Below are positions 6,125 through 30,575 of a DNA stretch of 64,000 nt, one piece after another. Source of the DNA: Sphaerisporangium rubeum (lineage in GTDB: Bacteria > Actinomycetota > Actinomycetes > Streptosporangiales > Streptosporangiaceae). The notes beneath the pieces are model-generated. The model saw nothing but the letters and a program-made list of their open reading frames with translations, ran no database searches and was not told the origin of the DNA. Location: positions 2,472,501 through 2,536,500 of the forward strand of contig NZ_JACHIU010000001.1 in the NCBI RefSeq assembly GCF_014207705.1, given 5' to 3'. Every line of letters begins with the position of its first letter. Position 1 is the first letter of the stretch. The position numbers and the translations under genes were made by a program.

Positions 6125-6230
6125 GCGTTCATCGACCCACTTCCCGCTTCCCGCGTTCAGCGGATCCGGCTTCCGGCGTTCAGCGGATCCGGCTTCCGGC
6201 GTTCAACGGACCCCGCCTCCGCGTTCAACG
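6125..6230 (-). repeat. Degenerate ~23-bp tandem repeats between DUF6286 gene and amaP
   Basis: The motif GCGTTC (plus strand) recurs at 6125, 6153, 6176, 6199 and 6221, spacing 28, 23, 23 and 22 bp. On the minus strand each copy reads like TGAACGC preceded by a G-rich patch, resembling the amaP initiation site (ATGAACG). The last copy contains the DUF6286 stop codon. Confidence 0.8.
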
Positions 6231-6797
6231 GACCCGCGGCTCCTTGCGCCGCACGGCCACCCGCACCTTCGGCCGCCGTAGCGGCGCCAGCTCCTCCAGA
6301 TGGCGCTCCACTGCGGCGGTCACCCGTTCCCGCAGATCACCCGGCTCGCGCAGCGGTGTGGTGACGCGGACGTCCAGGCGCCTGCGTCCGAGGCGCGCAC
6401 GGGCCCGCGACACCCCTTCCACGTCGTCGGCGACCGCCGCCATGTACCGGCGTGCCGCACCCTTGGTGATCCCCACCGCCGAGAGCGGGTCGTCCGACGC
6501 CAGCGGCACCAGCCGTGGCCGGCCAGGCGTCACCCCGAGCCCCAACAGGACCAGTCCCAGCAGGACGGCGAGCGCCGAGGCCGCCATCGTGGCGGGATCG
6601 GCCCAGCGCGCCGCCACCCAGTCCACGGCCCGGTCCAGCGACTCCGCACGCACCGGGCTCCCCGGAGTGGACGCGACCGCCTCGATCAGCGTCAGCACAC
6701 CGGCCACCGCGAGCGCCACCGCCACCACCGCCGCCGGCACCGACCGATGCGGCCGGAACACCCGGGCCCCGCGCCGCCACGCCTTCCGGCCGCTCAC
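6225..6797 (-). CDS. DUF6286 domain-containing membrane protein
   Basis: 190 residues with a GTG start that overlaps the stop of the preceding Asp23 gene by 4 bp. Two hydrophobic helices are visible, VPAAVVAVALAVAGVLTLIEAV (about 20-41) and MAASALAVLLGLVLLGLGV (about 70-88), and the C-terminal half (ITKGAARRYMAAVADDVEGV ... LDVRVTTPLREPGDLRERV) is a small alpha/beta domain like the DUF6286 proteins that accompany Asp23 genes in actinomycetes. It probably sits in the membrane with AmaP and contacts the Asp23 proteins. Function is otherwise unknown. Confidence 0.75.
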   Translation of the reverse strand: MSGRKAWRRGARVFRPHRSVPAAVVAVALAVAGVLTLIEAVASTPGSPVRAESLDRAVDWVAARWADPATMAASALAVLLGLVLLGLGVTPGRPRLVPLASDDPLSAVGITKGAARRYMAAVADDVEGVSRARARLGRRRLDVRVTTPLREPGDLRERVTAAVERHLEELAPLRRPKVRVAVRRKEPRVR

Positions 6798-7447
6798 GAC
6801 TCCTCCGGTCCACGCACCCGAGGCGGTTCGTTCCCGGCGGGTTCTCCGGTGCCGTACGCACGAGGCGGTTCGTTCCCGGCGGGTTCTCCGGTGCCGTAGG
6901 CACGAGGCGACTCGTCCCCGGCCGGCTCCCCGGTGCCGTACGCGCCGAGCGGTTCGTCGGCGCCGTACGCGCCGAACGGTTCTTCCGCGCCGTGTGGTTC
7001 GCGGGTGCCGTGCACACCGGACGGCTCTTCGGTGTCCTGCCTGATGAGCCGTTCGCGTGCGCCGGCCGGTTCCCCGTCGCGGTTCGCGCCGGGGAGGAGA
7101 CGGTCCACGTCTATGTCGACCTGGCGGACGTCCAGGCCGGTGAGAGCGTGGACGCGGTCGGTGACGTGGTCGCGGACGCGGCGGGTGACCTCCCGGACCG
7201 GTGCGGGGTAGGCCACGGAGAGGTGGATGCGCAGCATGGCGAGGCCGCCGTCGATGTGGCCCGACACCCGTGGTGGCGCGCTCGTGGTGTCGTGTCCCAC
7301 GGGTACGCCGAGCACGCGGCGGACCGCACGGCCGGCCTCGTCCACCTCGGCGGCGGCCGTGGCGGCGATCCGTTCGAGCACCTTGCCGGAGATCCGGGTC
7401 CTGCCGCGTTCCTCAGGTGCGCGGATCCCGGCGGGACCGGCGCTCAT
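6794..7447 (-). CDS. Asp23/Gls24 family envelope stress protein with C-terminal 14-residue repeats
   Basis: 217 residues, ATG start inside an ATGA overlap with the small upstream membrane gene. The first ~120 residues form an Asp23 domain (GKVLERIAATAAAEV ... LRIHLSVAYPAPVREVTRRV ... LTGLDVRQVDIDVDRL). The rest is a Gly/Glu/Pro-rich tail with three clean copies of a 14-residue unit (AYGTGEPAGNEPPR) and decayed ones, matching a 42-bp DNA repeat. Asp23 proteins are cytosolic but bound to the membrane through AmaP and respond to cell-wall stress. The tail is not part of the family and looks like a recent expansion. Confidence 0.85.
   Translation of the reverse strand: MSAGPAGIRAPEERGRTRISGKVLERIAATAAAEVDEAGRAVRRVLGVPVGHDTTSAPPRVSGHIDGGLAMLRIHLSVAYPAPVREVTRRVRDHVTDRVHALTGLDVRQVDIDVDRLLPGANRDGEPAGARERLIRQDTEEPSGVHGTREPHGAEEPFGAYGADEPLGAYGTGEPAGDESPRAYGTGEPAGNEPPRAYGTGEPAGNEPPRVRGPEES
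6813..6990 (-). repeat. 42-bp in-frame repeats in the tail of an Asp23 gene
   Basis: Units built on GGTTCGTTCCCGGCGGGTTC (plus strand) recur at 42-bp spacing, two nearly identical, then degenerating toward 6990. They encode AYGTGEPAGNEPPR-like repeats. Confidence 0.85.
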
Positions 7448-7635
7448 GACACGCGTCTGCGGCCGAGCACGCCGCTCATGTCCATGGTGCCGCTCATCGC
7501 GCGTCCGGCGAGGAAGCCGATGACGCTGAGGACCAGCACGATCAGGAACACCACGAAGCCGCCGAACGCGCCGGCGAATCCCAGTGCCGTCCCCCACAGC
7601 AGGCCTGCCATCGGCCACCAGCGGTTCTCGTCCAT
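7444..7635 (-). CDS. Small membrane protein of the Asp23 operon
   Basis: 63 residues starting MDENRWW; the ATG at 7635 is preceded by GAAGGG at about 8 bases. A long hydrophobic region (LLWGTALGFAGAFGGFVVFLIVLVLSVIGFLAGRAM) could be one long or two tight membrane helices. It resembles the short DUF2273-like proteins found in Asp23 operons of Gram-positive bacteria, though I cannot assign the family with certainty. It ends in an ATGA overlap with the next Asp23 gene, so it is translated with it. A role in tethering Asp23 proteins is inferred from context. Confidence 0.7.
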   Translation of the reverse strand: MDENRWWPMAGLLWGTALGFAGAFGGFVVFLIVLVLSVIGFLAGRAMSGTMDMSGVLGRRRVS

Positions 7636-7699
7636 GTCGTTCACCCTTCGTCGTGTCGCAGTACTCACGGCCCGCAGGGACCCGCGGGCCTCCGGTCGC

Positions 7700-8275
7700 T
7701 CATCGCCGGTTCCGGGACGGCAGGCGGACGTCCTCGACCCGGACGTCCACCGGTTCACCGGGAACCAGTGGCGCCACGGCGTCGCGCACCCCGGCGGCCA
7801 CCTCCGCGAGCGGCCTGCCGTAGTCCGCCACCACCGCGACGCGCACCTCCCGCTCCAGCACGGACACCCCACGCACGGCCCGTCCCGCCAGGTGGGTGGC
7901 CAGCGGCCCCCGCGCCAGCCCGGCGACCCCCGGACAGTCACATACGGCCCGCGCGATGCGCTCGGCCAGCTCACCGGCCTGTTCCGCCGTGACGTCCGCT
8001 TCGGGACCGGCCGGCACGGCCTGTTCCGCCGTGACGTCCGCTTCGGGGCCGGCCGGCACGGCCTGTTCCGCCGTGACGTCTGCTTCGGGGCCGGTGTGCG
8101 AACCGGTCTGTTCGGTCGTGACGTCCGCTTCGGGACCGGTCGTTCTCGCTGTGGCGGCCGTGTCGAGGCCGGTGTCGCGCCGGCCGGCCTGACCCGCCGT
8201 GCGGCCCATGTCACGCGCACCCGTGGGCTCACCCGCGGGTTCCTTCCCCGGGTGCCGGGGGTTCCGCGCGTTCAC
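7700..8275 (-). CDS. Asp23-like protein with N-terminal 14-residue repeats
   Basis: 191 residues from a GTG in a GTGA overlap with the upstream Asp23 gene. The C-terminal ~90 residues (IARAVCDCPGVAGL ... REVRVAVVADYGRPLAEVAAGV ... EPVDVRVEDVRL) are an Asp23-type domain. The N-terminal half is an Ala/Glu/Thr-rich region with repeats of GPEADVTAEQAVPA, encoded by 42-bp DNA units starting at 7978, 8020 and 8062. It would pair with the neighbouring Asp23 proteins in an envelope-associated layer. The repeats could act as a flexible or sticky spacer; that is inference. Confidence 0.75.
   Translation of the reverse strand: MNARNPRHPGKEPAGEPTGARDMGRTAGQAGRRDTGLDTAATARTTGPEADVTTEQTGSHTGPEADVTAEQAVPAGPEADVTAEQAVPAGPEADVTAEQAGELAERIARAVCDCPGVAGLARGPLATHLAGRAVRGVSVLEREVRVAVVADYGRPLAEVAAGVRDAVAPLVPGEPVDVRVEDVRLPSRNRR
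7978..8140 (-). repeat. 42-bp in-frame repeats in an Asp23-like gene
   Basis: Three near-identical 42-bp units begin at 7978, 8020 and 8062 (CCTGTTCCGCCGTGACGTCC on the plus strand), with a fourth decayed copy to about 8140. Confidence 0.9.
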
Positions 8276-8724
8276 TGGACCCGGGACTCCGTGGGTTCCG
8301 GCCCCTCCTCGCCAGGCAGGTGGAGGTCCTCGACGGCGATGTTGACCTCGGTGACCTCGAGGCCGCACATGTTTTCCACCTTGTTGACGATGTTGCGCCG
8401 GATCCCCGCGGCCACGTCCGGTATCGAGGCGCCGTAGTCGACGATGACGGCGAGGTCCACGGCGGCCTGTCGTTCGCCGACCTCCACCGTGACGCCGGTC
8501 GTCGGGCTGACGCCTCCCGAGAAGCGCTCGCGGACGGCGCCGAGGGCCCGGGTCATGCCGGTCCCCACGGCGTGGACCCCGGTCACCTCACGGGCCGCCA
8601 TGCCGGCGATCTTGGCGACCACCATGTCGGCGATCGTGGTCTTGCCGCGCTCGGTGAGCAGGGTCGTGCCGCCGCCCTCTCTGATCCTCGGACGCGGTAC
8701 GGTCTCGTTCCTCTGCGTGCTCAT
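8272..8724 (-). CDS. Asp23/Gls24 family envelope stress response protein
   Basis: 150 residues starting MSTQRNET; the ATG at 8724 has GGGGGA about 6 bases upstream, better than the longer start at 8778. Canonical Asp23 features: ADMVVAKIAGMAAREVTGVHAVG, then VEVGERQAAVDLAVIVDYGASIPDVAAGIR and VTEVNIAVEDL. It is the most typical of the three Asp23 copies and heads the six-gene minus-strand operon (three Asp23, small membrane protein, DUF6286, AmaP). Likely a cytosolic, AmaP-anchored protein of the envelope stress response. Confidence 0.9.
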   Translation of the reverse strand: MSTQRNETVPRPRIREGGGTTLLTERGKTTIADMVVAKIAGMAAREVTGVHAVGTGMTRALGAVRERFSGGVSPTTGVTVEVGERQAAVDLAVIVDYGASIPDVAAGIRRNIVNKVENMCGLEVTEVNIAVEDLHLPGEEGPEPTESRVQ

Positions 8725-8854
8725 CTCGTCCCCCGTTCCCGCGAGACCCTCCCCCCGTGGTGCAGGCGGTGAAGGCACGACGGGCAGCCATGTTCACTCT
8801 CACCAGGACTTATGCCCTGTTTTGTCACATTTACCCGTTTTGTCTGGCTGGGGA

Positions 8855-10666
8855 TCAGGCCGGTGCGGGAGCCTCCCAGCGGCCCATCAGGTCGCGGTAC
8901 AGCGGCGAGGCGTCCATCAGCTCGGCATGCGTGCCGGACATGGCCCTGCTGCCGTCCATCACGAGAATCCTGTCGGCACGGAGCGCCGACGTGAGCCGGT
9001 GCGCGACGACGATCAGCGTGCCGTCCCTGCGCGCGAACGCCTCCTCGGCCCGCGCCTCGGCCGCCGGGTCCAGGTGGCAGGTCGCCTCGTCGAGCAGCAC
9101 CAGCCGCGCCGGGGACAGGTAGGCCCTGGTCAGCGCGATGAGCTGCCGCTCGCCTTGCGACAGAGCGGCCGGGTCCACCTCGGCCGCGTACCCGCCGAGC
9201 CGGGCCGCGAGATCGGTCATGCCGACCGCCGCCACAGCGGCGTCGAGCTCGATCGAGCCGGGGGAGTCCGCCAGGTACGCGAGGTTCTCGCCGAGCGTGC
9301 CGCGGAAGACGTACGCCTCCTGCGGGATGAGCACGCGGGTCCGGCTCAGCGCGGCCCGGCCGAGCGTGTCCACCGGCACCCCGCCGATCAGCACCCGTCC
9401 CTCCTTGGGCCGGAGCACCCCCGCCGCGAGCGCCGCCACCGTGGACTTGCCGATGCCGCTCGGCCCGATCACCGCGAGGTGCTCACCGTCCGGCACCTCC
9501 AGGTCGAGACCGGCCACCACCGGCTCCGCGCCGAGGCCGTACGCGAACGTCACTCCGCGCATGCGCACCGCGCCGCCGCGCGGCGTCCCGCGCGGCGTCC
9601 CGCGCGGCGTCCCGCGCGGCGGACCGGCCTCGGGGGAGCGGCCGGCGGGGAGGGTCGTGGTGTTTCCGCCGGTGGTCAGGATGCGTTCGAGTGCGACGGT
9701 GAGGCGCACGCCGTTCACGCCGATGCCCTGCACGAGGCTGCCGAGGGCCGGGGTGAGGGACTGCGCGACGTACGTCAGCGTGCCGAGCACCACCCCGGCG
9801 GTCGCGCCGTCGCGTACCAGGGACGGGGTGGCGGCCAGCACCAGCAGGATCGGCAGCCAGCCGCCGACGGCCAGCGACAGCGTGCGGACGGACGTGAGGC
9901 GGGCCAGCCCGGTGGCGGCGCCGGCCTGCTCGTCCACGGCCCGGCCGACCCGCGCCGCCACCCGGCCCTCGGCGCCGCAGGCGCGCACGTCGCGCAGGCC
10001 GTCCACCATGGCGGCCAGCGACGCCGCGGTACCCTCCTCGGCGAGGATGGCCCGCCGCTGCCGTGCCGCCATCGAAGGCAGCGACGTCACGAAGAGCGCC
10101 AGCCCGGCCAGCAGCGGCAGGAGCACCAGCGGCAGCACCGAGCCCATCAGCGACCACACACCGAGGACCACGCCGGTCACCGAGAACGCGAACGACCGGA
10201 CCACCGCGATGACCGCGGCGAACGCGTCCCTCGCCAGCTCGACCTGCCGGTTGAGCCGCGCCACCGCCGCGGTGTCCTGGCCCCTGCCGGTGGCCGCCGC
10301 GCGGTGCAGCGTGCCCGCCACCACGCGGGTCAGCAGGTCGTCACGGAACGGCTCCACGATGCCGGCGATGGCGAGCAGCACCTGCCGCGCACCGATCGCC
10401 GCGGCGAGCCAGGCGGCGGTCAGGATGCACAGCCACCCGAACCCCACGGCGGGCCGCCCCACCGCGAAGCCGTCGTCCAAGGCGTGCGCGACGGCGAGCC
10501 CCGACACGAACGACGGCGCGGTCTCGGCGAACGACCACAGCAGCAGCCGCACCACATGCCGCCGCCGCCGAGCCAGGGCCGCACGCAGCACCCCGCCGAC
10601 TGTGGTCCCGTCCCTCGTCACGGCGCGTCCCCTCACTCCGCCGACTGTGGCTCCGTCCCCCGTCAC
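8855..10666 (-). CDS. ABC exporter (TM-ATPase half transporter), second of the lanthipeptide pair
   Basis: 603 residues from the GTG at 10666, which overlaps the stop of the first exporter gene (GTGA); a duplicate in-frame GTG lies 45 bp further in. Six-helix membrane domain in the first ~330 residues, then an ATPase with Walker A GPSGIGKST, signature LSQGERQLI and Walker B LVLLDEATCHLD. The linker holds three copies of RGTP (12-bp DNA repeat near 9585-9620). It corresponds in position to ramB of the SapB-type operon and most likely forms a heterodimer with the upstream gene to export the lanthipeptide. A substitution of His after EATC in the D-loop (CHLD) is normal. Confidence 0.87.
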   Translation of the reverse strand: MTGDGATVGGVRGRAVTRDGTTVGGVLRAALARRRRHVVRLLLWSFAETAPSFVSGLAVAHALDDGFAVGRPAVGFGWLCILTAAWLAAAIGARQVLLAIAGIVEPFRDDLLTRVVAGTLHRAAATGRGQDTAAVARLNRQVELARDAFAAVIAVVRSFAFSVTGVVLGVWSLMGSVLPLVLLPLLAGLALFVTSLPSMAARQRRAILAEEGTAASLAAMVDGLRDVRACGAEGRVAARVGRAVDEQAGAATGLARLTSVRTLSLAVGGWLPILLVLAATPSLVRDGATAGVVLGTLTYVAQSLTPALGSLVQGIGVNGVRLTVALERILTTGGNTTTLPAGRSPEAGPPRGTPRGTPRGTPRGGAVRMRGVTFAYGLGAEPVVAGLDLEVPDGEHLAVIGPSGIGKSTVAALAAGVLRPKEGRVLIGGVPVDTLGRAALSRTRVLIPQEAYVFRGTLGENLAYLADSPGSIELDAAVAAVGMTDLAARLGGYAAEVDPAALSQGERQLIALTRAYLSPARLVLLDEATCHLDPAAEARAEEAFARRDGTLIVVAHRLTSALRADRILVMDGSRAMSGTHAELMDASPLYRDLMGRWEAPAPA

Positions 10667-10677
10667 GGCGCGTCCCC
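10593..10677 (-). repeat. 45-bp-period duplication carrying two GTG start sites
   Basis: A 40-bp sequence at 10593-10632 recurs at 10638-10677 with three differences. Each copy includes CGTCAC, giving in-frame GTG codons at 10666 and 10621 (minus strand). The upstream copy also carries the stop codon of the preceding gene. Confidence 0.9.
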
Positions 10678-12483
10678 GCACCGCGCGAGAGGGTCCGGGG
10701 AGAGCTCGGCCGTGACCTCGAAGATCGACCGGTACTCGGGGTCGTGCCACAGCGCGTCGTGGGTGTCCTGACCGCGCACCCGGCCGTCCTCCAGCCAGAC
10801 GACCAGGTCGGCGCGGGCCGCGGTGGCGGCGCGGTGGGCCACGATGAGCCGGGTGCGGCCCCGCAGGGTGCCGGTCAGCGCGCGCGCCACCTGGTGCTCG
10901 GTGACGGTGTCCAGGCTGGAGGTGGCGTCGTCCAGGACGAGCACCCGGCCCCCGTGCGCGAAGGCCCTGGCCAGGCCGATGCGCTGCCGTTCGCCGCCGG
11001 ACATCGGCGCCTCGTCGAGCGCGGTGTCGTACCCGCGCGGCAGCCGCCGGATGAACGAATCGGCCGCCGCCGCGCCGGCCGCGGCCCGCACGATCGACGC
11101 GCCACGACCTTCCCGCACTCCGCCGGCCGCCTCGCCGCGCGTGGTGACCGGCCGTCCCGCCGCGATGGCGTCGGCGACGCTGGTGCCGAACAGGACGGGC
11201 CGCTCGAAGGCGTACGCCACCGCCTCCCGCAGCGCCGTGTGACCGAGGCTCCGCAACGGCACACCGTCGAGCAGCACCTCGCCGTCGTCGGGGTCGGCGA
11301 GCCTCCCCGCCACCGCCGCCAGGGTGGACTTGCCGCTTCCCGACCGTCCCACCACGGCCACCGCCGTCCCGGCGGGGATGTCCAGGTCGATGTCGCGGAG
11401 CGCGTCGCGTCCGTCCACGCGGACGCCGACCCCCCGGAACTCCAGCCGTCCGCCGGGGCCGTCCTCCGGCAGGCGCAGGTCGCCGTACGCGGGAGGCGTG
11501 TGGCCGAGCAGAGCGGTGAGGCGGCCGGCGGCGGAGCGCGCGCGGGCCAGGCGGTTCAGGTGGCCGAGCGCGGAGGCGAGACCGGCGCCGAGGACGGTGT
11601 AGCGCGCGGCGGCGAACAGCTCACCCGCGGTCAGGTGGCCGCCGGACAGCAGCAGGCCCCCCACCCCGAGCACCGTGACCTCCAGCATGGGGACGACGAT
11701 GGCCGCCTGCACACCGGCGCGTGCGTTGACGCGCCACAGCGCCATGCCGTGGCGGCGAAGCCGGGGGAGGGGGGACAGGACGCGGCGGGTCTCCAGGTCC
11801 TCGGTGCCGGCGGCGGCGATGGTGCGCGCGCCGGAGAGCGCGTCGACGAGGCGGGTCGCGAGGTCGCTCTGCGCCTGCTGGTACCCGGAGGAGACGCTGG
11901 TGGTCTCGCGCAGGAACGCGCGCAGCACCAGGCCGATCACGGCGAGGCCCGCCGCGAAGGCCACCGCGAGCCGCACGTCGATGAGCGCCAGCGCGACCAG
12001 GGCTCCGGCGGCGGGGACGAGCAGCGCGACCGCGGTGATGACGGACTCCGGTGCGGTGCCGGTCTCGTCGGCGTTGGCACCCGCACGGGTGACCAGGTCA
12101 CCGGCGGAGAAGTGCCGCGACAGGCCGGGTCCGGTGACGAGGACGTGCCGGACGACGCGGCGGCGCAGCCTGCGTGCCGCCTGCGCGCTGCCGGCCCCCG
12201 CGGCGAGCACGGCCACCGCGTCGCAGGCCACCACGGCGGCGATCAGCACCGCGCACGTCACGAAGGCCGTGCCGAGGGTGCCGCCTGGTGTGACCAGTGC
12301 GTCCACCGCGCGGCCGAGCGCGGCCGGCAGCAGCAGCTCGACCACGGCCGCGGTCAGCGCGGTCGCCGCGTACACCGAGGGCCACGCGCCGCTGCGCCGC
12401 AGTACGTCACGCAGCAGCCCGTCACCGGAGGCCGGTCCGGAGATGCCGGTTCCCTGGCTTGGCGTCGCCTGGGTTTCCGACAT
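10663..12483 (-). CDS. ABC exporter (TM-ATPase half transporter), first of the lanthipeptide pair
   Basis: 606 residues starting MSETQATP at 12483 (GAAGGG about 9 bases upstream). About six membrane helices are followed by an ATPase with Walker A GRSGSGKST, signature MSGGERQRIG and Walker B VLVLDDATSSLD. No N-terminal peptidase C39 domain is present, so leader removal must be done elsewhere, as is usual for class III lanthipeptides. Position directly after the precursor genes matches ramA. It ends in a 4-bp overlap with the second exporter. Walker B has DD rather than DE, so this half-site may be catalytically weak; the pair would then be an asymmetric heterodimer. Confidence 0.87.
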   Translation of the reverse strand: MSETQATPSQGTGISGPASGDGLLRDVLRRSGAWPSVYAATALTAAVVELLLPAALGRAVDALVTPGGTLGTAFVTCAVLIAAVVACDAVAVLAAGAGSAQAARRLRRRVVRHVLVTGPGLSRHFSAGDLVTRAGANADETGTAPESVITAVALLVPAAGALVALALIDVRLAVAFAAGLAVIGLVLRAFLRETTSVSSGYQQAQSDLATRLVDALSGARTIAAAGTEDLETRRVLSPLPRLRRHGMALWRVNARAGVQAAIVVPMLEVTVLGVGGLLLSGGHLTAGELFAAARYTVLGAGLASALGHLNRLARARSAAGRLTALLGHTPPAYGDLRLPEDGPGGRLEFRGVGVRVDGRDALRDIDLDIPAGTAVAVVGRSGSGKSTLAAVAGRLADPDDGEVLLDGVPLRSLGHTALREAVAYAFERPVLFGTSVADAIAAGRPVTTRGEAAGGVREGRGASIVRAAAGAAAADSFIRRLPRGYDTALDEAPMSGGERQRIGLARAFAHGGRVLVLDDATSSLDTVTEHQVARALTGTLRGRTRLIVAHRAATAARADLVVWLEDGRVRGQDTHDALWHDPEYRSIFEVTAELSPDPLARCGDAP

Positions 12484-12567
12484 GCCGGCGTTTCCCTTCG
12501 AAGGATCCCGGGAATGAACGTGCCTGGAGCGGCCGGGCAAGGGCCGCCCCAGGCGGGTTGTTCAGCG

Positions 12568-12593
12568 GCGTGCTCTGCTCGCGCGGAGCACGC
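12568..12593 (-). terminator. Hairpin between precursor genes and exporter genes
   Basis: Stem GCGTGCTC / GAGCACGC with a 10-nt loop, 16 bp past the second precursor stop. It lacks a long T run, so it is better seen as an attenuator or 3' stabiliser letting precursor mRNA outnumber exporter mRNA. Confidence 0.5.
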
Positions 12594-12608
12594 TCAGGCT
12601 GTGAGGGT

Positions 12609-12728
12609 TCAGCCGCAGATGATGCTCAGGCTGCTGTTCTCGTGGGGGGTGCACCCCAGGAGGGACAGGTTGCTGCCGCCGCCGCCGCCACCGGCGAGTT
12701 CCATGTCCTGCAGGTCGAGAAGCGCCAT
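12609..12728 (-). CDS. Class III lanthipeptide precursor (copy 2)
   Basis: 39 residues. The leader starts MALLDLQDMELAG and carries the LLDLQ motif bound by class III synthetases, followed by a run of six Gly. The core SNLSLLGC ... SSLSIICG has two Ser-x-x-Ser-x(2-3)-Cys units, the pattern converted to labionin or lanthionine rings in SapB-type peptides. It is identical to copy 1 except for one leader residue (Leu for Val at position 11). It lies 77 bp after copy 1 and before the exporter genes. Confidence 0.92.
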   Translation of the reverse strand: MALLDLQDMELAGGGGGGSNLSLLGCTPHENSSLSIICG

Positions 12729-12805
12729 GATCGTGCCTTTCTTACGGATGTGAAACGCTGGGTCGTGCACGGCCGAGGGCCGGCCGCTGGCGCTGCGGTG
12801 AGGGT

Positions 12806-12925
12806 TCAGCCGCAGATGATGCTGAGGCTGCTGTTCTCGTGGGGGGTGCACCCCAGGAGGGACAGGTTGCTGCCGCCGCCGCCACCGCCGGCGACCTCCA
12901 TGTCCTGCAGGTCCAGAAGAGCCAT
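12806..12925 (-). CDS. Class III lanthipeptide precursor (copy 1)
   Basis: 39 residues, ATG at 12925 with an excellent GGAGGTGAACAC ribosome site, only 16 bp after the synthetase stop. Leader MALLDLQDMEVAG plus six Gly; core of 21 residues with Ser1-x-x-Ser4-x3-Cys8 and Ser14-x-x-Ser17-x2-Cys20. The SapB precursor RamS has a very similar second half (SSLSITTC) but with three residues between the last Ser and Cys. The product would be a small two-ring morphogen-like or antimicrobial peptide; activity cannot be read from sequence. Confidence 0.93.
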   Translation of the reverse strand: MALLDLQDMEVAGGGGGGSNLSLLGCTPHENSSLSIICG

Positions 12926-12941
12926 GTGTTCACCTCCTTCT

Positions 12942-15548
12942 TCAGGTGTCCGTCGGGTCCACCGCTCCGGCGGGGGTGCCGGAGGGGGAGTCTTGGGGGA
13001 GGATGAACGGCAGCCGCACCGGCCGGTCGTGCAGCGCGGCGCCGAGCGCCAGCAGCACACCGGCCGTGCCGGTCGCCAGGTCCATCGAGAGCCGGAGCAA
13101 CTGGTTGCCCGGGAAAGCCAGCCCGCCGCGGTACGGCGTGGCGTGCCAGGCGAGGCCCTCGACCTGTCGCGCGACCTCGGGTGAGGTGCGGTCCAGGCCG
13201 GGCCGCAGGCCCGAGCACAGCGCCGCGATCATGCCGCCGCGGCCGGAGAACAGGCCGCACTGCACGTAGTAGTCCAAGGTGGCGACCGGTGCGATCGCCG
13301 CGAGGGACGCACCGAACGCCTCGTCGTCGCGGTGCCGCAGGTACTGCGCGAGGACCATGCCGATGCCGGCCGAGCCCTCGTCGACGTACGGGTTGGTGCG
13401 CCAGCCCTGCTGCACCTGCAGCTGACCGTCCTCGCGGACCGTGCAGCGCTTGAGGTCCTGCCGCAGCGCGGTGTGCGCCAGGTCGAGCATGGTCTGGTCG
13501 CCGGTGGCCTCGTACATGCGCAGGAACAGCAGCGCGGGTCCGGACGAGCCGTGCATCAGGCCGGCGTGCGGGTTGCCGCCACCGCTCACCTCGGCGACGC
13601 TCTCGACGTCGCCGAGCCGCTCGGCCACCACACCGGTGACCTCGGCGGCGGCGCGCGTGAGGTCGCTCTCGCCGGTGACCTGGCCGAGGTGCAGCAGGTT
13701 GAGCCCGATGCCGGCCAGGCCGGCGTGCAGGCTCAGCCCGAGCCGTTGCCACCGCTCACGCAGGCACAGGGAGACCAGCTCCAGCGCGTCGTCGCGCCGG
13801 CCGAGCTCCTCGAAGGCGTACGCGACGCCGTGCAGGCCGTCGTAGAAGCCGAGGCCCGTGCCGGGCTTGGGGGAGAACGCGCGCTTCCTGAGCCACTCCT
13901 CGTGCTCGGGGTGTCTCCCGGCGCCGGTCGCCGCCAGCGCGTACAGCACACCTGCGGCGCCGGTCGCCAGGTTGAGGCCCCCGCCGGGCTGGAACTGCGT
14001 GATGTCGCCGGGGAAGAGCCGGTCGTCGCGCTCGGGGGTGGCGGAGGCGAGGATGGCCCGTGCCGCGGCGTCGCGCACCTCCTGCCACGGGGCCCGGCCG
14101 GGGAGCGGCAGTTCCCGCATGCGCGCGTCGTCGTGCGGCCCCTCGCCCAGGATCAGGCTGACGGCCTCGTCGAGGTAGCCGGCCGGCACGGGGAACGTCC
14201 CGGCGGCCAGCTCGGCCAGGTGGTTCACCTTGGGCCGGTGCAGCGGGATGAGCACGGTGGACATCGGCGCGAACAACCCGAGGCGCAGGCAGGCCAGGGA
14301 GTAGCGGTCGGCGTGGACGCCGAGGCGGTCGGCCGGGGGGCAGAAACCGGGGTGCGCGAGCGTGGGCCTGGCGTTCCGCTCGGCGAGGGTCGCGACCTCG
14401 AAGTCGATGAGCACGACACGGTCGCCGTCCACCAGCACGTTGAACGGGTGCAGGTCGCCGAACACGACCCCGCGCTCGTGCAGCGCCGCCACGGCGTCCT
14501 CGACCTTGGCGAGCGTCTTCATGGTCCACTCGGTGAACTCGGCCGCGTGCTCGGGGGTGATGACGGCACGGGTCAGGGGGTGCCGGTGCACCGACTCCTG
14601 GCTGAGCGTGGTGCCGTCGACGAATTCCTGCACGAGGAAGTGGTGCTCGCCGAGGGTGAAGTAGTCGTACAGCTGCGGCACGACGTCCAGGCCCTTGAGC
14701 CGGCCGAGGATGTCGGCCTCGTGCCTGAGCCGTGCCACGGCGTCGCGGCCGACGGCGTCGAGCCCGGCGTAGGGCCTGGCCTCCTTGAGCACGACGGTGC
14801 GGCCGTCGCGGGTGTCGGTGCCCTTGTACACGCCGCCGCCGTTGGAGAAGTGGAGGACCTTCTCCACGGTGTACGGCAGGCCCTCCAGGGTCACCGCGTT
14901 GCGCGCGGCGAGATGGGGGGCGAGGAAGTCCGGCAGGGTCACCCAGGACGGCGGGGAGAACGAGGGGCCGCGGCGGTCGGGGACGAGGTTGCCGTCGGGG
15001 TCCTCTATGGCGAGCACCTGCTCGCGGTTGCCGTCCACGCAGTAGCGCTCGGCGAAGCCGCCGTACCGGACGAACAGGGGCCCCTCACCGATGCGCAGGT
15101 CGCTGAGGATGTACGGCCCCCGCACGCCGTGCAGGAGCTCGCCGAGCTCCTTGAGCACGAGTTCGAACTCGTCGACGTCCGCCGGGTACATCGTCACGAG
15201 CTTGCCGCTGCCGCCGCGGTCGGCGTACTTGCTGTTGAGCATCATGACGACGCGGGGGCCGCGCAGGAACTTGAAGGGCAGCCGGCGGCCGACGCAGTAG
15301 TCGAAGACGGCGTCCAGGGTGCGCTCGGCGTCGTCCAGGCACGAGGAGACGTGGATCTTCCAGCCCTGGGGAGGCAGGGGCCGGTCCTGCGGCATGTAGT
15401 GGAACCAGGTGTCGGTCGGCCGGTGGAGCCAGCCGGCGGGGACGGCCCTGGACGCCGCGGGAAAGTCGGGGTGGTCGGAGCGCTTACCGTCAAGGGAGTC
15501 GTAAAACAGCGGATCAGCCAGGCAATACATCGCGTATTTGTCGATCAC
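12942..15548 (-). CDS. Class III lanthipeptide synthetase LanKC (RamC-like)
   Basis: 868 residues from the GTG at 15548 (GAGAGGGG about 10 bases upstream); an ATG at 15530 (MYCLADPLFYDS) is the alternative. Three domains follow in order: an N-terminal phosphoSer/Thr lyase (~1-210, with KYADRGGSGK), a Ser/Thr kinase (~230-500, with VVLKEARPYAG, HERGVVFGDLHPFN and LIDFEVA), and a C-terminal LanC-like cyclase (~530-868). The cyclase shows no zinc-ligand Cys-His set, as in class III enzymes. It phosphorylates and eliminates Ser/Thr in the precursors and closes the rings. It heads the operon synthetase, precursor, precursor, exporter, exporter, the same order as ramCSAB of Streptomyces. Confidence 0.95.
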   Translation of the reverse strand: MIDKYAMYCLADPLFYDSLDGKRSDHPDFPAASRAVPAGWLHRPTDTWFHYMPQDRPLPPQGWKIHVSSCLDDAERTLDAVFDYCVGRRLPFKFLRGPRVVMMLNSKYADRGGSGKLVTMYPADVDEFELVLKELGELLHGVRGPYILSDLRIGEGPLFVRYGGFAERYCVDGNREQVLAIEDPDGNLVPDRRGPSFSPPSWVTLPDFLAPHLAARNAVTLEGLPYTVEKVLHFSNGGGVYKGTDTRDGRTVVLKEARPYAGLDAVGRDAVARLRHEADILGRLKGLDVVPQLYDYFTLGEHHFLVQEFVDGTTLSQESVHRHPLTRAVITPEHAAEFTEWTMKTLAKVEDAVAALHERGVVFGDLHPFNVLVDGDRVVLIDFEVATLAERNARPTLAHPGFCPPADRLGVHADRYSLACLRLGLFAPMSTVLIPLHRPKVNHLAELAAGTFPVPAGYLDEAVSLILGEGPHDDARMRELPLPGRAPWQEVRDAAARAILASATPERDDRLFPGDITQFQPGGGLNLATGAAGVLYALAATGAGRHPEHEEWLRKRAFSPKPGTGLGFYDGLHGVAYAFEELGRRDDALELVSLCLRERWQRLGLSLHAGLAGIGLNLLHLGQVTGESDLTRAAAEVTGVVAERLGDVESVAEVSGGGNPHAGLMHGSSGPALLFLRMYEATGDQTMLDLAHTALRQDLKRCTVREDGQLQVQQGWRTNPYVDEGSAGIGMVLAQYLRHRDDEAFGASLAAIAPVATLDYYVQCGLFSGRGGMIAALCSGLRPGLDRTSPEVARQVEGLAWHATPYRGGLAFPGNQLLRLSMDLATGTAGVLLALGAALHDRPVRLPFILPQDSPSGTPAGAVDPTDT

Positions 15549-16060
15549 CGCTGGACACCCCTCTCTTGGCTCGATCGCTCGATCGCTAGGAGGAGAATTA
15601 CGGATAACCAGACCTGTGCCTAGTGACACGTTCCATTGGTCACATGGGAGGGTGTCACTGTTCGTGTCATGACGTTCGTCATATTTTCCCCCTACGAGCT
15701 GTGATTAGTTGTGCGGTGGTAGTGCATGACTCGTTGCAAAATTCCTTGTTGTCCTGGTTTGCCACTGCCTGTAGGGCTCTGGCCTGCGGCCGAATGATGT
15801 TCGGAATGCTGGCCCCCGGGGTCGGTGGGGCATCCGAGGGCTTTCGGACAGCAGGCGGTTGTCAAGGCTTGACGTGATTCTTATGTCCTGGTTCGGGAGG
15901 ATGTGGAGCTTCCTGGGGAGACTTCTGCTGTCGTAGCGTCCCTGCCAGATGCGGCATTTCTGCGGCCGTGCGGGACGGTGGACGCGCTCCGCGGGAAGAG
16001 GTCAGGTTTAGCCTCCTCTTCCTCGGGTAGAAGCAGGGTTTTTCGTTCGGGGGGGATTCT
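15549..16060. other. Long regulatory region between the lanthipeptide operon and the DUF2795 gene
   Basis: 512 bp without a believable gene and with a locally lower GC stretch (about 15590-15740). It must hold the divergent promoters. It contains the inverted repeat at 15622-15659 and a hairpin GGAAGAGG / CCTCTTCC at 15994-16022 just upstream of the DUF2795 start. No LuxR/RamR-type regulator gene is present. Confidence 0.6.
15622..15659. promoter_or_regulatory. Candidate operator: inverted repeat AGTGACAC / GTGTCACT upstream of LanKC
   Basis: Two perfect 8-bp arms (15622-15629, 15652-15659) with centres 30 bp apart, i.e. about three helical turns, 74-112 bp upstream of the synthetase start. 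The half-site GTGTCA occurs again at 15664-15669. The binding protein is unknown. Confidence 0.5.
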
Positions 16061-16252
16061 ATGGGAACGCCGGAGTTCATACACGTACAAAAGTATTTGT
16101 CCGGAGTCGACTACCCGGTAACGAAAGAGCAGCTGCTGGAACACGCCAAGAGCCACAAGGCCGACGAGAAGGCCATGGAGGCACTGCGGCAGCTTCCCGA
16201 GGGCACCTTCGACGGCCCCAACGCCGTCAGCAAGGCGGTCGCTCGCACCTGA
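16061..16252 (+). CDS. DUF2795 domain-containing small protein
   Basis: 63 residues, ATG at 16061 with a GGGGGGG ribosome site 6 bases upstream. The sequence (YLSGVDYPVTKEQLLEHAKSHKADEKAMEALRQLPEGTFDGPNAVSKAV) matches the small helical DUF2795 family of actinobacteria, which has no established function. It is transcribed away from the lanthipeptide operon and is 112 bp upstream of the aminotransferase gene, possibly in one transcript. Confidence 0.85.
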   Translation: MGTPEFIHVQKYLSGVDYPVTKEQLLEHAKSHKADEKAMEALRQLPEGTFDGPNAVSKAVART

Positions 16253-16364
16253 GCGGCTCTCACCGCGAACACGGCCGATCTCCGGCTGAACCGGACGCCG
16301 CCGGGCCGCGTACCTCCCCATGTCGCGTCCCGGCGACGTCCGCCGTTCATGGAGGAGGCCCCCA

Positions 16365-17897
16365 TTGCCTGTGTCGCCTGGTGCCGGCGAGGCCGGCCCG
16401 CCGCGTGCCGAGGCGCACAGCCCGTCGTACTTCTCGCTGCTGCGCGGAAGTCCCGGGCTGCGCGAGGCGCCGGTGGACTTCTGCATCCCCTGCAACCCGT
16501 ACTTCCCCACACCGGAGCTGTTCGGGCTGCTTCAGCAGAACCTCACGACGATCCTGAAGTACTACCCGAGCGACGCCGGCGCCATCACCGCCGAACTCGG
16601 CTCGTTGCTGGGGCTCCAGCCGCAGACCCTCGTCATGGGCAACGGCTCCACCGAACTGATCACCTGGATCGACCACCTGCTGATCCGTGAGAGCGTCGCC
16701 GTCCCCGTGCCGACCTTCGGCCGCTGGACCGACCAGCCGCTGGAGACCGGCAAACGGGTGGACATGTACCGCCTGCCGGAAGAGCGGGGATTCGCCTTGG
16801 ACACCGAGGACTTGGTGCGCTTCATCCGCGCACGCGGCTCACGGGCCGCGGTGATCTGCAACCCCAGCAACCCCGACGGCGGCTACCTGCGCCGCGCACA
16901 GGTGATCGACCTGCTCGACCGGCTCACCGACCTGGACCTGGTCGTGGTGGACGAGTCGTTCATCGACTTCGTCGACGAGGAGCACTCGCCGAGCGTCGCC
17001 GACGAGGCCGCGCTGCGGCCCAACGTCGTCGTGCTCAAGAGCCTCGGCAAGAACTTCGGCCTGCACGGCATCCGCTTCGGCTACATGGTGGCCAACCCGG
17101 CGCTCGCCGGCACGGTGCGCCGCATGCTGCCGAAGTGGAACCTCAACTCGTTCGCCGAGGCGGTCGTGTTCCTGCTCAAGGAGCACACGCGGGCCTACCA
17201 GGAGAGTCTGCGGCTGGTCGCGGCGGACCGCCGGTCGATGCTCCAGCAGCTGTCGGCGCTGCCGGGGCTCAAGGTGTACCCGTCGCAGGGCAACTTCTTG
17301 CTGGTGCGGCTGCCGGACGGCAAGGACGGGGTGCACCTGCGCGACCACCTGCTGTCGTCGTACAACCTGCATGTGCGCGAGTGCGGCAACAAGCTCGGTT
17401 CGAGCAGCCGCTTCCTGCGGTTCGCCGTACGGCCCCGCCAGGACGTCGTCCGGCTCGCCGACGGCCTGCGTGCCTACCTGTACGCCGGATCCGGCCGCGT
17501 CACGGCCGCCATCACCTCCGCCGCCGTCGTCCCGCCGTCGCCGCCGTCCGCGCCGTACCGGGAGGAGCCGGCCTACCTGGAGAAGCCCGCGTACCGGGAG
17601 GAGCCGGCGTACCGGGAGAAGCCCGCGTACCGGGAGGAGCCCGTCTACCGCGCCGAGACGTACGCCACACCGGCCCCCGCGGTGACCGAGGCGCCGGTGT
17701 ACCGCATGGAACCGGCGCGGCGGGAGACGCCGTACCCGGAGGACCCGTTCGTCGTCGGCGGGGACGACCCGCGGCACCGCAGGCTGGACCCCCTGGACCT
17801 CAGCACCCGCTGGACGTTCGGTGAGGACACCTCGCCGTTCCGCGCGCTCGGTGACGGCCGGGCCGAGCACACGCGGGGGTACGACCACCGGAGCTGA
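16365..17897 (+). CDS. PLP-dependent class I/II aminotransferase with a Tyr/Glu/Pro repeat tail
   Basis: 510 residues from the TTG at 16365, chosen because GGAGGAGG sits 6 bases upstream; a GTG at 16371 or the unsupported ATG at 16320 are alternatives. Residues ~20-380 form a fold-type I aminotransferase close to histidinol-phosphate aminotransferase and CobD-like enzymes: YYPSDAG, GNGSTELITW, CNPSNPDGG, VVVDESFIDF, the PLP-lysine loop SLGKNFGLHGIRFG and RFLRFAVRP. The last ~130 residues are unrelated: about six copies of a six-residue unit (PAYREE/PAYREK), then an acidic-basic tail. The reaction is unknown. A class I/II aminotransferase near a lanthipeptide operon could be coincidental. Confidence 0.85.
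   Translation: MPVSPGAGEAGPPRAEAHSPSYFSLLRGSPGLREAPVDFCIPCNPYFPTPELFGLLQQNLTTILKYYPSDAGAITAELGSLLGLQPQTLVMGNGSTELITWIDHLLIRESVAVPVPTFGRWTDQPLETGKRVDMYRLPEERGFALDTEDLVRFIRARGSRAAVICNPSNPDGGYLRRAQVIDLLDRLTDLDLVVVDESFIDFVDEEHSPSVADEAALRPNVVVLKSLGKNFGLHGIRFGYMVANPALAGTVRRMLPKWNLNSFAEAVVFLLKEHTRAYQESLRLVAADRRSMLQQLSALPGLKVYPSQGNFLLVRLPDGKDGVHLRDHLLSSYNLHVRECGNKLGSSSRFLRFAVRPRQDVVRLADGLRAYLYAGSGRVTAAITSAAVVPPSPPSAPYREEPAYLEKPAYREEPAYREKPAYREEPVYRAETYATPAPAVTEAPVYRMEPARRETPYPEDPFVVGGDDPRHRRLDPLDLSTRWTFGEDTSPFRALGDGRAEHTRGYDHRS
17555..17660 (+). repeat. 18-bp in-frame repeats in the aminotransferase tail
   Basis: Units of the type GCGTACCGGGAGGAGCCG repeat about six times and encode PAYREE-like hexapeptides. 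Confidence 0.85.
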
Positions 17898-28556: not shown

Positions 28557-30575
28557 TCACGGGTGCGGCTCCGGTGAGGGCCGCTGCGCCAGCGGGTGCG
28601 CGGGGTGCGGGTCGGGTGGCAGGTTGTCGTTCGGCAGGATGATCATGCTGGTGGGGAGGAGGACGACGGCGCTGGTGCCGCCGTACGGGGAGCGGCGCAG
28701 GGTGACCTTGGCGTGGTGGCGGGCCGCGAGGCGGCTGACGACGAACAGGCCGAGGCGGTCGCTGTCGGCGAGGTCGAACTCCGGGGGGTCGGCGAGGCGC
28801 TGGTTGATCTCCTCGCGCGCCTCCTCGCTCAGGCCGAGGCCCCGGTCCTCCACCTCGACGGCGAAGCCACGGCCCACCAGTTCGCCGCGGATCTGCACCC
28901 GGGTGGTCGGCGGCGAGAAGACGGTGGCGTTCTCGATGAGCTCGGCGAGCAGGTGGATGACGTCGGCGACGGCGGTGCCGGCGATGGCGGCGTCGGACAT
29001 CGGCAGTACGGTGACGCGCGCGTGCTGCTCGACCTCGGCCACGGCGCCGCGGACGACGTCGTGCACGGGGACGGGACGGCGCCAGGCGCGGCCGGCGGGT
29101 GCGCCGGACAGAATGATCAGGCCTTCGGCCTGGCGGCGCATGCGGGTGGTGAGGTGGTCGAGCGAGAAGATGTCGGCCAGTGTGTCGGGTGCGTCGGTCT
29201 TGCTCTGCATGGTGCTGAGTTGCGTGAGCTGCCGGTGCAGCAGCGACTGGTTGCGGCGGGCCAGGTTGCGGAAGACGTGGCTGACACCGGTACGCAGGTC
29301 GGCCTGGCCCACGGCGGCCTCGATGGCGGTGCGGCGCACGGTGGTCAGGGCCTGCGCGACGTCCTGGGCCTCCAGCGTGGTGCCGGTGATGGTGACGGGA
29401 GGCGCCTCGGACTCGACGTCCACGGCCTGGCTGTCACGCAGCTTGCTCACCACGCGGGGAAGTTGCACGTCGGCCAGTTCCAGCGCGGCGCTGCGCAGGT
29501 CGGCGAGCTCCTGCGCGAGGCCCCGGCCGAGCCGCGCCGACAGCACGAGAGCGATGAGGATCGCGAGCAGGCCGAGGCCGCCGGCGGCGACGATCTGCGC
29601 GATCATGCCGGCGGCGGTGGCGTCGGACCGGTCGTTGAGCAGCGCCTGGCTGTCGCCGGTGAGGCGGTCGAGCCCGGGCCCGACCGAGGTGGCGAGGGCC
29701 TGCCAGTCCTGCGCGGACGCCGGGAGTCCGTCGCCGGCCAGCACCTGGTTCTCCAGCGCGACGAGGTTGCGGTAGTCGGCCGAGTCGAGCAGCGTGTCGT
29801 ACGGCCGCCGCAGCTCCCCGTCGAGCACGGCGACGCCGCGGTCCAGCAGCAGCCGGCGGCCCGCGACCATCTCGGCGAGCGCGCGCCGCTCGTGTCCCTG
29901 CAGCGGGCCGCGCAGGATGGCGGCGGTCAGCAGCGCGTCCTCCCGCGACAGCGTCTCGCGGGACCTGACGATGGTCTGCAGCCCCGCCGCCTGCCGGAAC
30001 AGCCCGATCTCCGGCACGGTGACCAGCCGGTCGTACAGGCCGTACAGGGTGTCCTGGATCCTGGTGTACTCCTGCACGATGCGCATCCGGTCCAGCGTCC
30101 GCGCGTCCACGTCCTGGCGGATGGTGCCGAGGCCCTGGGCCTGCCGTTCCAGTTCGGCCACGTCGGCCAGGATGTCGGGGCCGATCGCCGACAGGCCCTC
30201 CAGGGACGTGGCCCGCTGGTGGAACAGCGACACGGCGGCGTCGGTGTCCTCACGCGCGTCCGACAGCCGTCCGCCGTCGGACTCGTCGCTGCTCACGAGC
30301 ATCGCCGACAGGCGGCGTTCCTGCATGACGGCGGACGCGAGGTTCGCGGCCGGCATGGCGACCTGGTCGAACTGGGTGACGGCCCTGCGCAGCTCGAAGT
30401 AGTCGCCGACGATGTGGCCGGTGATGAACATCCACAGCACCGACAGCGCCGCGATCGGCAGGCATAACAGGGAGTACAGCTTGAAGCGGATGGTCCGCAT
30501 CCGCGCGGGTGGTGCCGGCTGCCCGAGGGGCACGAGCCGCCGTACAGCGGCCCCGAGGTCAGTGAAGGCGCCCAC
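28557..30575 (-). CDS. Sensor histidine kinase with nitrate/nitrite-sensing (NIT) domain
   Basis: 672 residues from a GTG at 30575 with GGAGG 6 bases upstream. One membrane helix (LLCLPIAALSVLWMFITGHIV), an extracytoplasmic helical NIT domain (~50-300, FDQVAMPAANLASAVMQERRLSAMLV), a second helix (IVAAGGLGLLAILIALVLSARL), a linker, and a cytosolic ATPase with HVFRNLARRNQSLLHRQL, N-box HLLAELIENATVFSPP and G-box VEDRGLGLS. This type usually sits with roadblock, DUF742 and small GTPase genes; none are here. Instead it follows the ECF transporter/amidohydrolase genes by 21 bp and is probably co-transcribed with them. Confidence 0.88.
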   Translation of the reverse strand: MGAFTDLGAAVRRLVPLGQPAPPARMRTIRFKLYSLLCLPIAALSVLWMFITGHIVGDYFELRRAVTQFDQVAMPAANLASAVMQERRLSAMLVSSDESDGGRLSDAREDTDAAVSLFHQRATSLEGLSAIGPDILADVAELERQAQGLGTIRQDVDARTLDRMRIVQEYTRIQDTLYGLYDRLVTVPEIGLFRQAAGLQTIVRSRETLSREDALLTAAILRGPLQGHERRALAEMVAGRRLLLDRGVAVLDGELRRPYDTLLDSADYRNLVALENQVLAGDGLPASAQDWQALATSVGPGLDRLTGDSQALLNDRSDATAAGMIAQIVAAGGLGLLAILIALVLSARLGRGLAQELADLRSAALELADVQLPRVVSKLRDSQAVDVESEAPPVTITGTTLEAQDVAQALTTVRRTAIEAAVGQADLRTGVSHVFRNLARRNQSLLHRQLTQLSTMQSKTDAPDTLADIFSLDHLTTRMRRQAEGLIILSGAPAGRAWRRPVPVHDVVRGAVAEVEQHARVTVLPMSDAAIAGTAVADVIHLLAELIENATVFSPPTTRVQIRGELVGRGFAVEVEDRGLGLSEEAREEINQRLADPPEFDLADSDRLGLFVVSRLAARHHAKVTLRRSPYGGTSAVVLLPTSMIILPNDNLPPDPHPAHPLAQRPSPEPHP

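Follow-up and report, generated by a model that had tools for sequence, protein, structure and literature searches.

A five-gene SapB/AmfS-type class III lanthipeptide operon with twin precursors in Sphaerisporangium rubeum, as predicted from sequence

A 64,000-nucleotide stretch of the Sphaerisporangium rubeum genome (contig NZ_JACHIU010000001.1, positions 2,472,501 to 2,536,500; the window, numbered here from its first letter) contains a complete class III lanthipeptide operon of the ramCSAB type with two precursor genes. Five unbroken genes occupy positions 8855-15551 on the minus strand in the order LanKC, precursor, precursor, ABC exporter, and ABC exporter, and family models score over cut-off, bearing out the gene content and order given in a preliminary description of this DNA. 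A synthetase, a precursor, and two exporters, the combination that marks the SapB/AmfS family, lie in one cluster, and judged by its genes the locus is of the known SapB/AmfS (ramCSAB/amfTSBA) kind. The gene arrangement is far beyond chance, since the genus loci that we fetched share it. What is new here is modest: a PHEN core subfamily of precursors, a promoter module, and a strong, partly covarying hairpin. With these findings, a developmental system familiar from Streptomyces is extended to a genus without RamR beside the operon. The genes of the operon are as follows.

12942..15551, minus strand: lanKC (ramC/amfT-like), class III lanthionine synthetase, 869 aa, GTG start; NF038151 and RamC_N
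12806..12925, minus strand: precursor P1 (RamS/AmfS-like, 39 aa); PF19402 at 44.8 bits and NF033212 at 50.6 bits; ribosome-binding site AAGGAGGTG
12609..12728, minus strand: precursor P2 (RamS/AmfS-like, 39 aa); PF19402 at 42.8 bits and NF033212 at 48.8 bits
10663..12483, minus strand: ABC exporter 1 (ramA-like place); PF00664 and PF00005, membrane and ATPase domains
8855..10666, minus strand: ABC exporter 2 (ramB-like place); PF00005, with NCBIfam exporter models scoring below their cut-offs

Synthetase, exporters, and flanking genes

The range of 8855..15548 first assigned to the operon holds the genes in their places, except that translation of the synthetase probably begins three bases beyond it, at the GTG at 15551. 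LanKC matched the NF038151 model, 'class III lanthionine synthetase LanKC', from end to end at 1101 bits (cut-off of 575) and RamC_N (PF25816) at 268 bits; the class IV LanL model reached 413 bits, below its cut-off of 650. Against the solved synthetase ThurKC (8sap), LanKC scored 294 bits over 869 aa, and it resembles ThurKC in its lyase-kinase-cyclase order and listed catalytic residues. In this alignment, read by eye, all eight lyase residues are kept (K65, H67, K94, K108, K117, D152, R163, and R191), which PMC10604976 lists as closely conserved in the text available, and the kinase DFE motif is present. The zinc-ligand positions (S726, F770, and D771 in ThurKC) are D, F, and S in LanKC; the three zinc ligands are thus absent, which matches the metal-free cyclase expected of class III in the same portion of that paper (PMC10604976). 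In contrast to ThurKC, where D771 is the proposed cyclase base, LanKC has S at this position.

The 7.5-Mb genome contains a single full-length LanKC, and the other 10 of its 11 matches cover only the kinase part. Two further LanC-like proteins are encoded in the same genome at C1:4720659-4721648 (L001) and C1:202625-203704 (L002), in frames of 665 and 482 aa. LanKC was found in 10 of 11 genus genomes, and the trait looks dispensable because the remaining genome, a 99% complete draft (G009), gave no LanKC match. The closest named synthetases are from Nonomuraea gerenzanensis (59.9% identity) and Actinomadura (57%). We considered and rejected a mobile origin, as LanKC had no phage match and all 107 matched records of the plasmid collection were below 60% identity.

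ABC exporter 1 is 63-72% identical across the genus loci, and the probable GTG start of ABC exporter 2 overlaps its stop codon (GTGA). A 45-bp in-frame tandem duplication (10589-10678; 89% alike) lies at this junction, and because it spans the stop-start overlap, the N terminus of ABC exporter 2 may be 15 residues longer. Within the second exporter gene, a 12-bp repeat at 9569-9621 encodes repeated TPRG residues in the segment that joins the membrane part to the ATPase part.

Asp23-family and DUF6286 genes adjoin the exporters at 6225-8778, a place kept in the genus loci reaching that far, and the Asp23-family gene is next to the exporters in all eight fetched genus loci that extend there. In the loci fetched from other genera, tblastn detected neither gene adjacent to the operon. 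Across the promoter, at 16061-17897, are a divergent DUF2795 gene and a gene for a CobD-like aminotransferase. DUF2795 is present in seven of the nine fetched genus loci that reach upstream, and one relative (G005; L066, 184-1500) has a CobD-like aminotransferase match with one in-frame TGA. Rfam models had no match in 8000-16500.

Twin precursors and the PHEN core

Both P1 and P2 pass the curated cut-offs of the PF19402 RamS and NF033212 SapB/AmfS models. A single substitution (V11L) separates the two 39-residue peptides, their genes show 7 mismatches in 120 bases, and the last 21 residues, SNLSLLGCTPHENSSLSIICG, are identical, in agreement with the identical 21-residue cores noted at the outset, the core boundary being predicted. 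Each carries an LLDLQ leader of the LxLQ form. The first core motif, S19-x2-S22-x3-C26, has the published S-x2-S-x3-C form; the second, S32-x2-S35-x2-C38, is one residue shorter, both than this form and than the corresponding SapB motif. T27 and H29 are also present in the core, two residues apart (T-P-H).

Within the accessible part of PMC7268733, S-x2-S-x3-C motifs give rise to lanthionine or to labionin, depending on the class III peptide, and the available text of PMC13380574 calls ring type difficult to predict from the synthetase sequence alone; for this core, the sequence is compatible with either lanthionine or labionin rings. Because two lanthionines with two dehydroalanines, as in SapB, have the same mass as two labionins, the 'two-ring' product predicted earlier is uncertain. 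With four waters lost, the bare 21-residue core has a calculated mass of 2071.98 Da, to which each leader glycine retained would add 57.02 Da.

The duplication of the precursor, which had been expected to raise product output, proved to be common. In a family sample of 250 genomes, 140 had SapB/AmfS precursor matches, with 77 having one, 38 having two, 23 having three, and 2 having four, so that 63 of the 140 precursor-carrying genomes contain two to four; matches were counted per genome and may sit in separate clusters. In a published survey, as far as its available text goes, 57% of class III precursors are the sole predicted one in their cluster and one cluster has 13 identical precursors (PMC7268733). 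Among 31 genomes compared, 24 have at least two whole PHEN-type copies (a tally excluding G010, in which the second copy is cut by a contig end), and their cores are identical in 9 and non-identical in 15. With identical cores in just 9 of 24, reiterating a single product is not the general function of duplication.

It is quite possible, if somewhat short of probable, that the twins are a recent duplication or a conversion tract with no dosage role. The copies in the window are 94% alike over 132 nt (some flank included), the nearest core among genus copies is for each its own twin, and both copy number and core identity vary among relatives. Such an origin has to be set against a multi-copy state that persists, as each of the nine genus genomes in which a precursor was found has two or three matches (one G010 gene being contig-cut), and not all twins are recent, since in most of these genomes the closest core to a copy was found outside its own genome. 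A comparison over 18 codons gave a mixed signal for concerted evolution between the two copies, and we do not claim it.

To place the core among its relatives, we read 126 precursors from 74 loci chosen, not at random, from the listed rows of the family sample and the genus; a guessed stretch (L116) was left out, although the lists count 75 loci including it. Sixty of these precursors, from 32 genomes of six genera, are of the PHEN type found in the window. Twelve of 18 core positions are invariant in all 60 PHEN cores, and 13 of 18 are invariant in the 58 cores counted by column, from which the search pattern dropped two (G215) with V or I at the first position. The CTPHENSS loop varies solely by a T-to-V change, which occurs in both copies of one genome, and the PHEN leaders vary in both length and sequence. 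That a core so nearly invariant is found over six genera indicates that the product is under selection and suggests that the exact peptide sequence matters. The preliminary description had named a core already described from another strain as grounds for setting its reading aside. This applies in part: we found the exact window core in seven other genomes, all of one other genus, and four fragments of the core family had no match in the literature text searched.

Promoter module and the hairpin after the last precursor

Three noncoding features accompany the operon.

15593..15702, minus strand: conserved promoter/operator module upstream of lanKC, with a putative role in expression
12522..12554, minus strand: 13-bp GC-rich hairpin after the last precursor and before the exporters, a candidate attenuator or mRNA stabiliser
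12568..12593, minus strand: second hairpin, between P2 and the conserved hairpin

Conservation in the 400 bp upstream of lanKC is limited to the proximal part in 10 genus loci, and alignment of these loci resolved a module of TGAC/GTCA half-sites followed by GTCACT-N17-TCCGTAATTC. A sequence-only model of this module (R1), trained on ten genus genomes, found one site each in 10 of the 11 genus genomes; the exception was G009, which also gave no LanKC match. On a 120-genome family sample, R1 found one site each in 16 genomes, four from the genus and 12 from other genera. The 12 sites outside the genus played no part in training, and each directly precedes a LanKC gene with 53-65% identity to the LanKC of the window. 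In total, the module was located in 22 genomes, as a single copy that in every case immediately precedes lanKC. The core pattern likewise occurs once in the S. rubeum genome with up to three mismatches allowed. These findings suggest a dedicated promoter that would be driven in trans. We looked for a wider regulon and rejected it; the S. rubeum genome held no second convincing site, with one further place at two mismatches and five in the backward control.

R1 had no match in several precursor-carrying genomes (G018, G019, G025, G026, and G032, among others). Five R1-negative loci from three genera (L072-L076) have GTAACT-N17-TCCGGAATTC before lanKC. The combined pattern GTMACT-N17-WCCGKAANTC has exact matches in the window, six of the nine other genus loci, L072-L077, and 9 of the 12 loci that R1 found outside the genus; it is absent from L064, L066, L068, L028-L031 (the named relatives), L143, L145, and L155. 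A BldN-type promoter, for which the available text of PMC2375139 gives the consensus CGTAAC-N16-CGTTGA, was rejected: the GTAACT half of the family resembles the published -35 element, but the -10 element is mismatched and the window has GTCACT.

Regarding a local regulator, we scanned 29 chosen ORFs between 843 and 31551 with Pfam in sets of 9, 10, and 10, five of them being the operon genes. No RamR/LuxR-type domain was recognised among these 29 ORFs, so the earlier observation that no RamR-type gene sits beside the operon holds. This is expected, since a published survey, as far as its available text goes, found ramR in streptomycetes alone (PMC4255298). A protein with NIT (nitrate and nitrite sensing) and HATPase_c domains, a histidine-kinase-like sensor, is encoded at 28557-30575, 13 kb from lanKC, and nothing links it to the operon. 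A consensus scan found one sigma-70-like match just before P2 (0.1 expected), and P2 may therefore have a promoter of its own.

The gap after the last precursor folds at a z score of -4.46, and the gap between the precursors folds at -0.09. In a 16-locus alignment, the consensus stem has 12 pairs, 4 of which show both-sided, pair-keeping changes; this alignment was trimmed around the hairpin, which biases it in the hairpin's favour, and L029, which has its own hairpin, was left unaligned. Across the alignment, five cells of the 12 consensus pairs are broken, and L028 fits the stem poorly. By eye, the folded relatives showed no second hairpin at its position. Thirteen multi-copy loci were folded, and in 12 of them the longest unbroken helix in the 60 nt after the last precursor exceeds that of any inter-precursor gap. 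For the window this difference is small (8 versus 7), with those 60 nt cutting off the conserved hairpin. The L076 helix after the last precursor is likewise the longer one (16 versus 8), but the energies are nearly equal (-33.7 for the gap versus -33.8 kcal/mol). Inter-precursor gaps fold strongly in L075 (-22.8 kcal/mol) and L076 (-33.7 kcal/mol), and a consensus scan detected no terminator-like site with a T run (1.3 expected). Given the missing T run and the strong inter-precursor folds in these two loci, the last hairpin is at most a candidate attenuator. It may attenuate transcription or stabilise the mRNA, and this arrangement suggests precursor-biased transcript levels. The promoter module and the hairpin offer handles on the regulator and on the precursor-to-exporter ratio, respectively.

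Proposed mechanism and role of the product

Like the SapB operon ramCSAB of Streptomyces coelicolor, whose cluster content is given in the accessible part of PMC4255298, the locus combines a synthetase, a RamS-family precursor, and two ABC exporters, and its precursors share with SapB two Ser/Cys ring motifs and an LDLQ leader motif. It differs from SapB in having two precursors instead of one, a poly-Gly leader end, a core with a CTPHENSS loop, and no adjacent ramR. AmfS of Streptomyces griseus (amfTSBA) and durhapeptin of Streptomyces durhamensis are likewise NF033212 precursors made with a RamC/AmfT-type synthetase, as described in the available text of PMC13380574. In contrast to these two, the operon here has a different core and no amfR-type regulator recognised alongside.

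Considered as a whole, these features make a working SapB/AmfS-type class III lanthipeptide operon very probable. A single conserved promoter upstream of lanKC, presumably activated by a trans-acting factor encoded elsewhere, would drive the operon, and the gene order and spacing imply that lanKC, P1, P2, and both exporter genes are transcribed as one unit. The hairpin after P2 may limit read-through into the exporters or protect the precursor end, such that precursor mRNA would outnumber the rest. LanKC, with its kinase and lyase residues present, would recognise the LLDLQ leader, phosphorylate and eliminate Ser, and close two Cys rings, S-N-L-S-L-L-G-C and S-S-L-S-I-I-C, without zinc, giving a predicted product with two lanthionines or two labionins. 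ABC exporters 1 and 2, probably as a heterodimer, would then export the peptide, and a protease encoded elsewhere may trim the poly-Gly leader.

By analogy with SapB and AmfS, we consider it rather likely that the product acts at the hyphal surface in aerial growth or sporulation. A pure surfactant would not need so strict a hydrophilic CTPHENSS loop, which counts against this surfactant-type explanation, and the strictness points to recognition or a constraint on the substrate as well as surface activity. Accommodating it with a specific signal or kin-recognition peptide, whose invariant CTPHENSS loop is read by a receptor and which is not mainly a surfactant, is a minority option that we think unlikely. 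A signal would be in keeping with the 12 of 18 positions that never vary in the 60 PHEN cores, the near-fixed loop, and the variable leaders, and durhapeptin, according to the available text of PMC13380574, acts on some strains only. However, neither the operon nor the flanking ORFs scanned contained a recognisable receptor gene, and the same conservation could also reflect what the synthetase needs of its substrate. The strict core is a handle on whether SapB-type peptides act as surfactants or as recognised signals.

We hold it improbable that PHEN peptides form a separate morphogen class in which activity resides in the invariant CTPHENSS loop rather than in general amphipathicity, a metal or receptor is bound by the loop His, and one cross-genus, externally driven promoter times release. 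The loop His might then act with Glu, Asn, or the neighbouring Thr, possibly in a third, His-butyrine ring. Noursin, a copper-binding class III peptide with a labionin and a histidine-to-butyrine crosslink, is similarly a LanKC product with Thr and His in its core, as far as the accessible text of PMC10206099 shows. However, its crosslink joins residues 8 and 11, three apart, and T and H are two apart here, and the PHEN relative with V for T in both copies differs further from noursin. An antibacterial or defensive lanthipeptide, instead of a morphogen, would fit the varied activities of class III peptides and the operon's own exporters. Yet the scanned ORFs revealed no immunity gene other than the exporters, and the cores are nearly identical across genera even though weapons usually diversify, leaving a defensive role quite improbable.

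Finally, with respect to the favoured role at the hyphal surface, the S. rubeum genome contains seven chaplin-type domains over cut-off, in a row in one 600-aa open frame (C1:549271-550422; L078-L084). They would fit, as weak support, an organism with a hydrophobic surface layer. Known chaplins are short, and a seven-domain frame of 600 aa is unusual against them.
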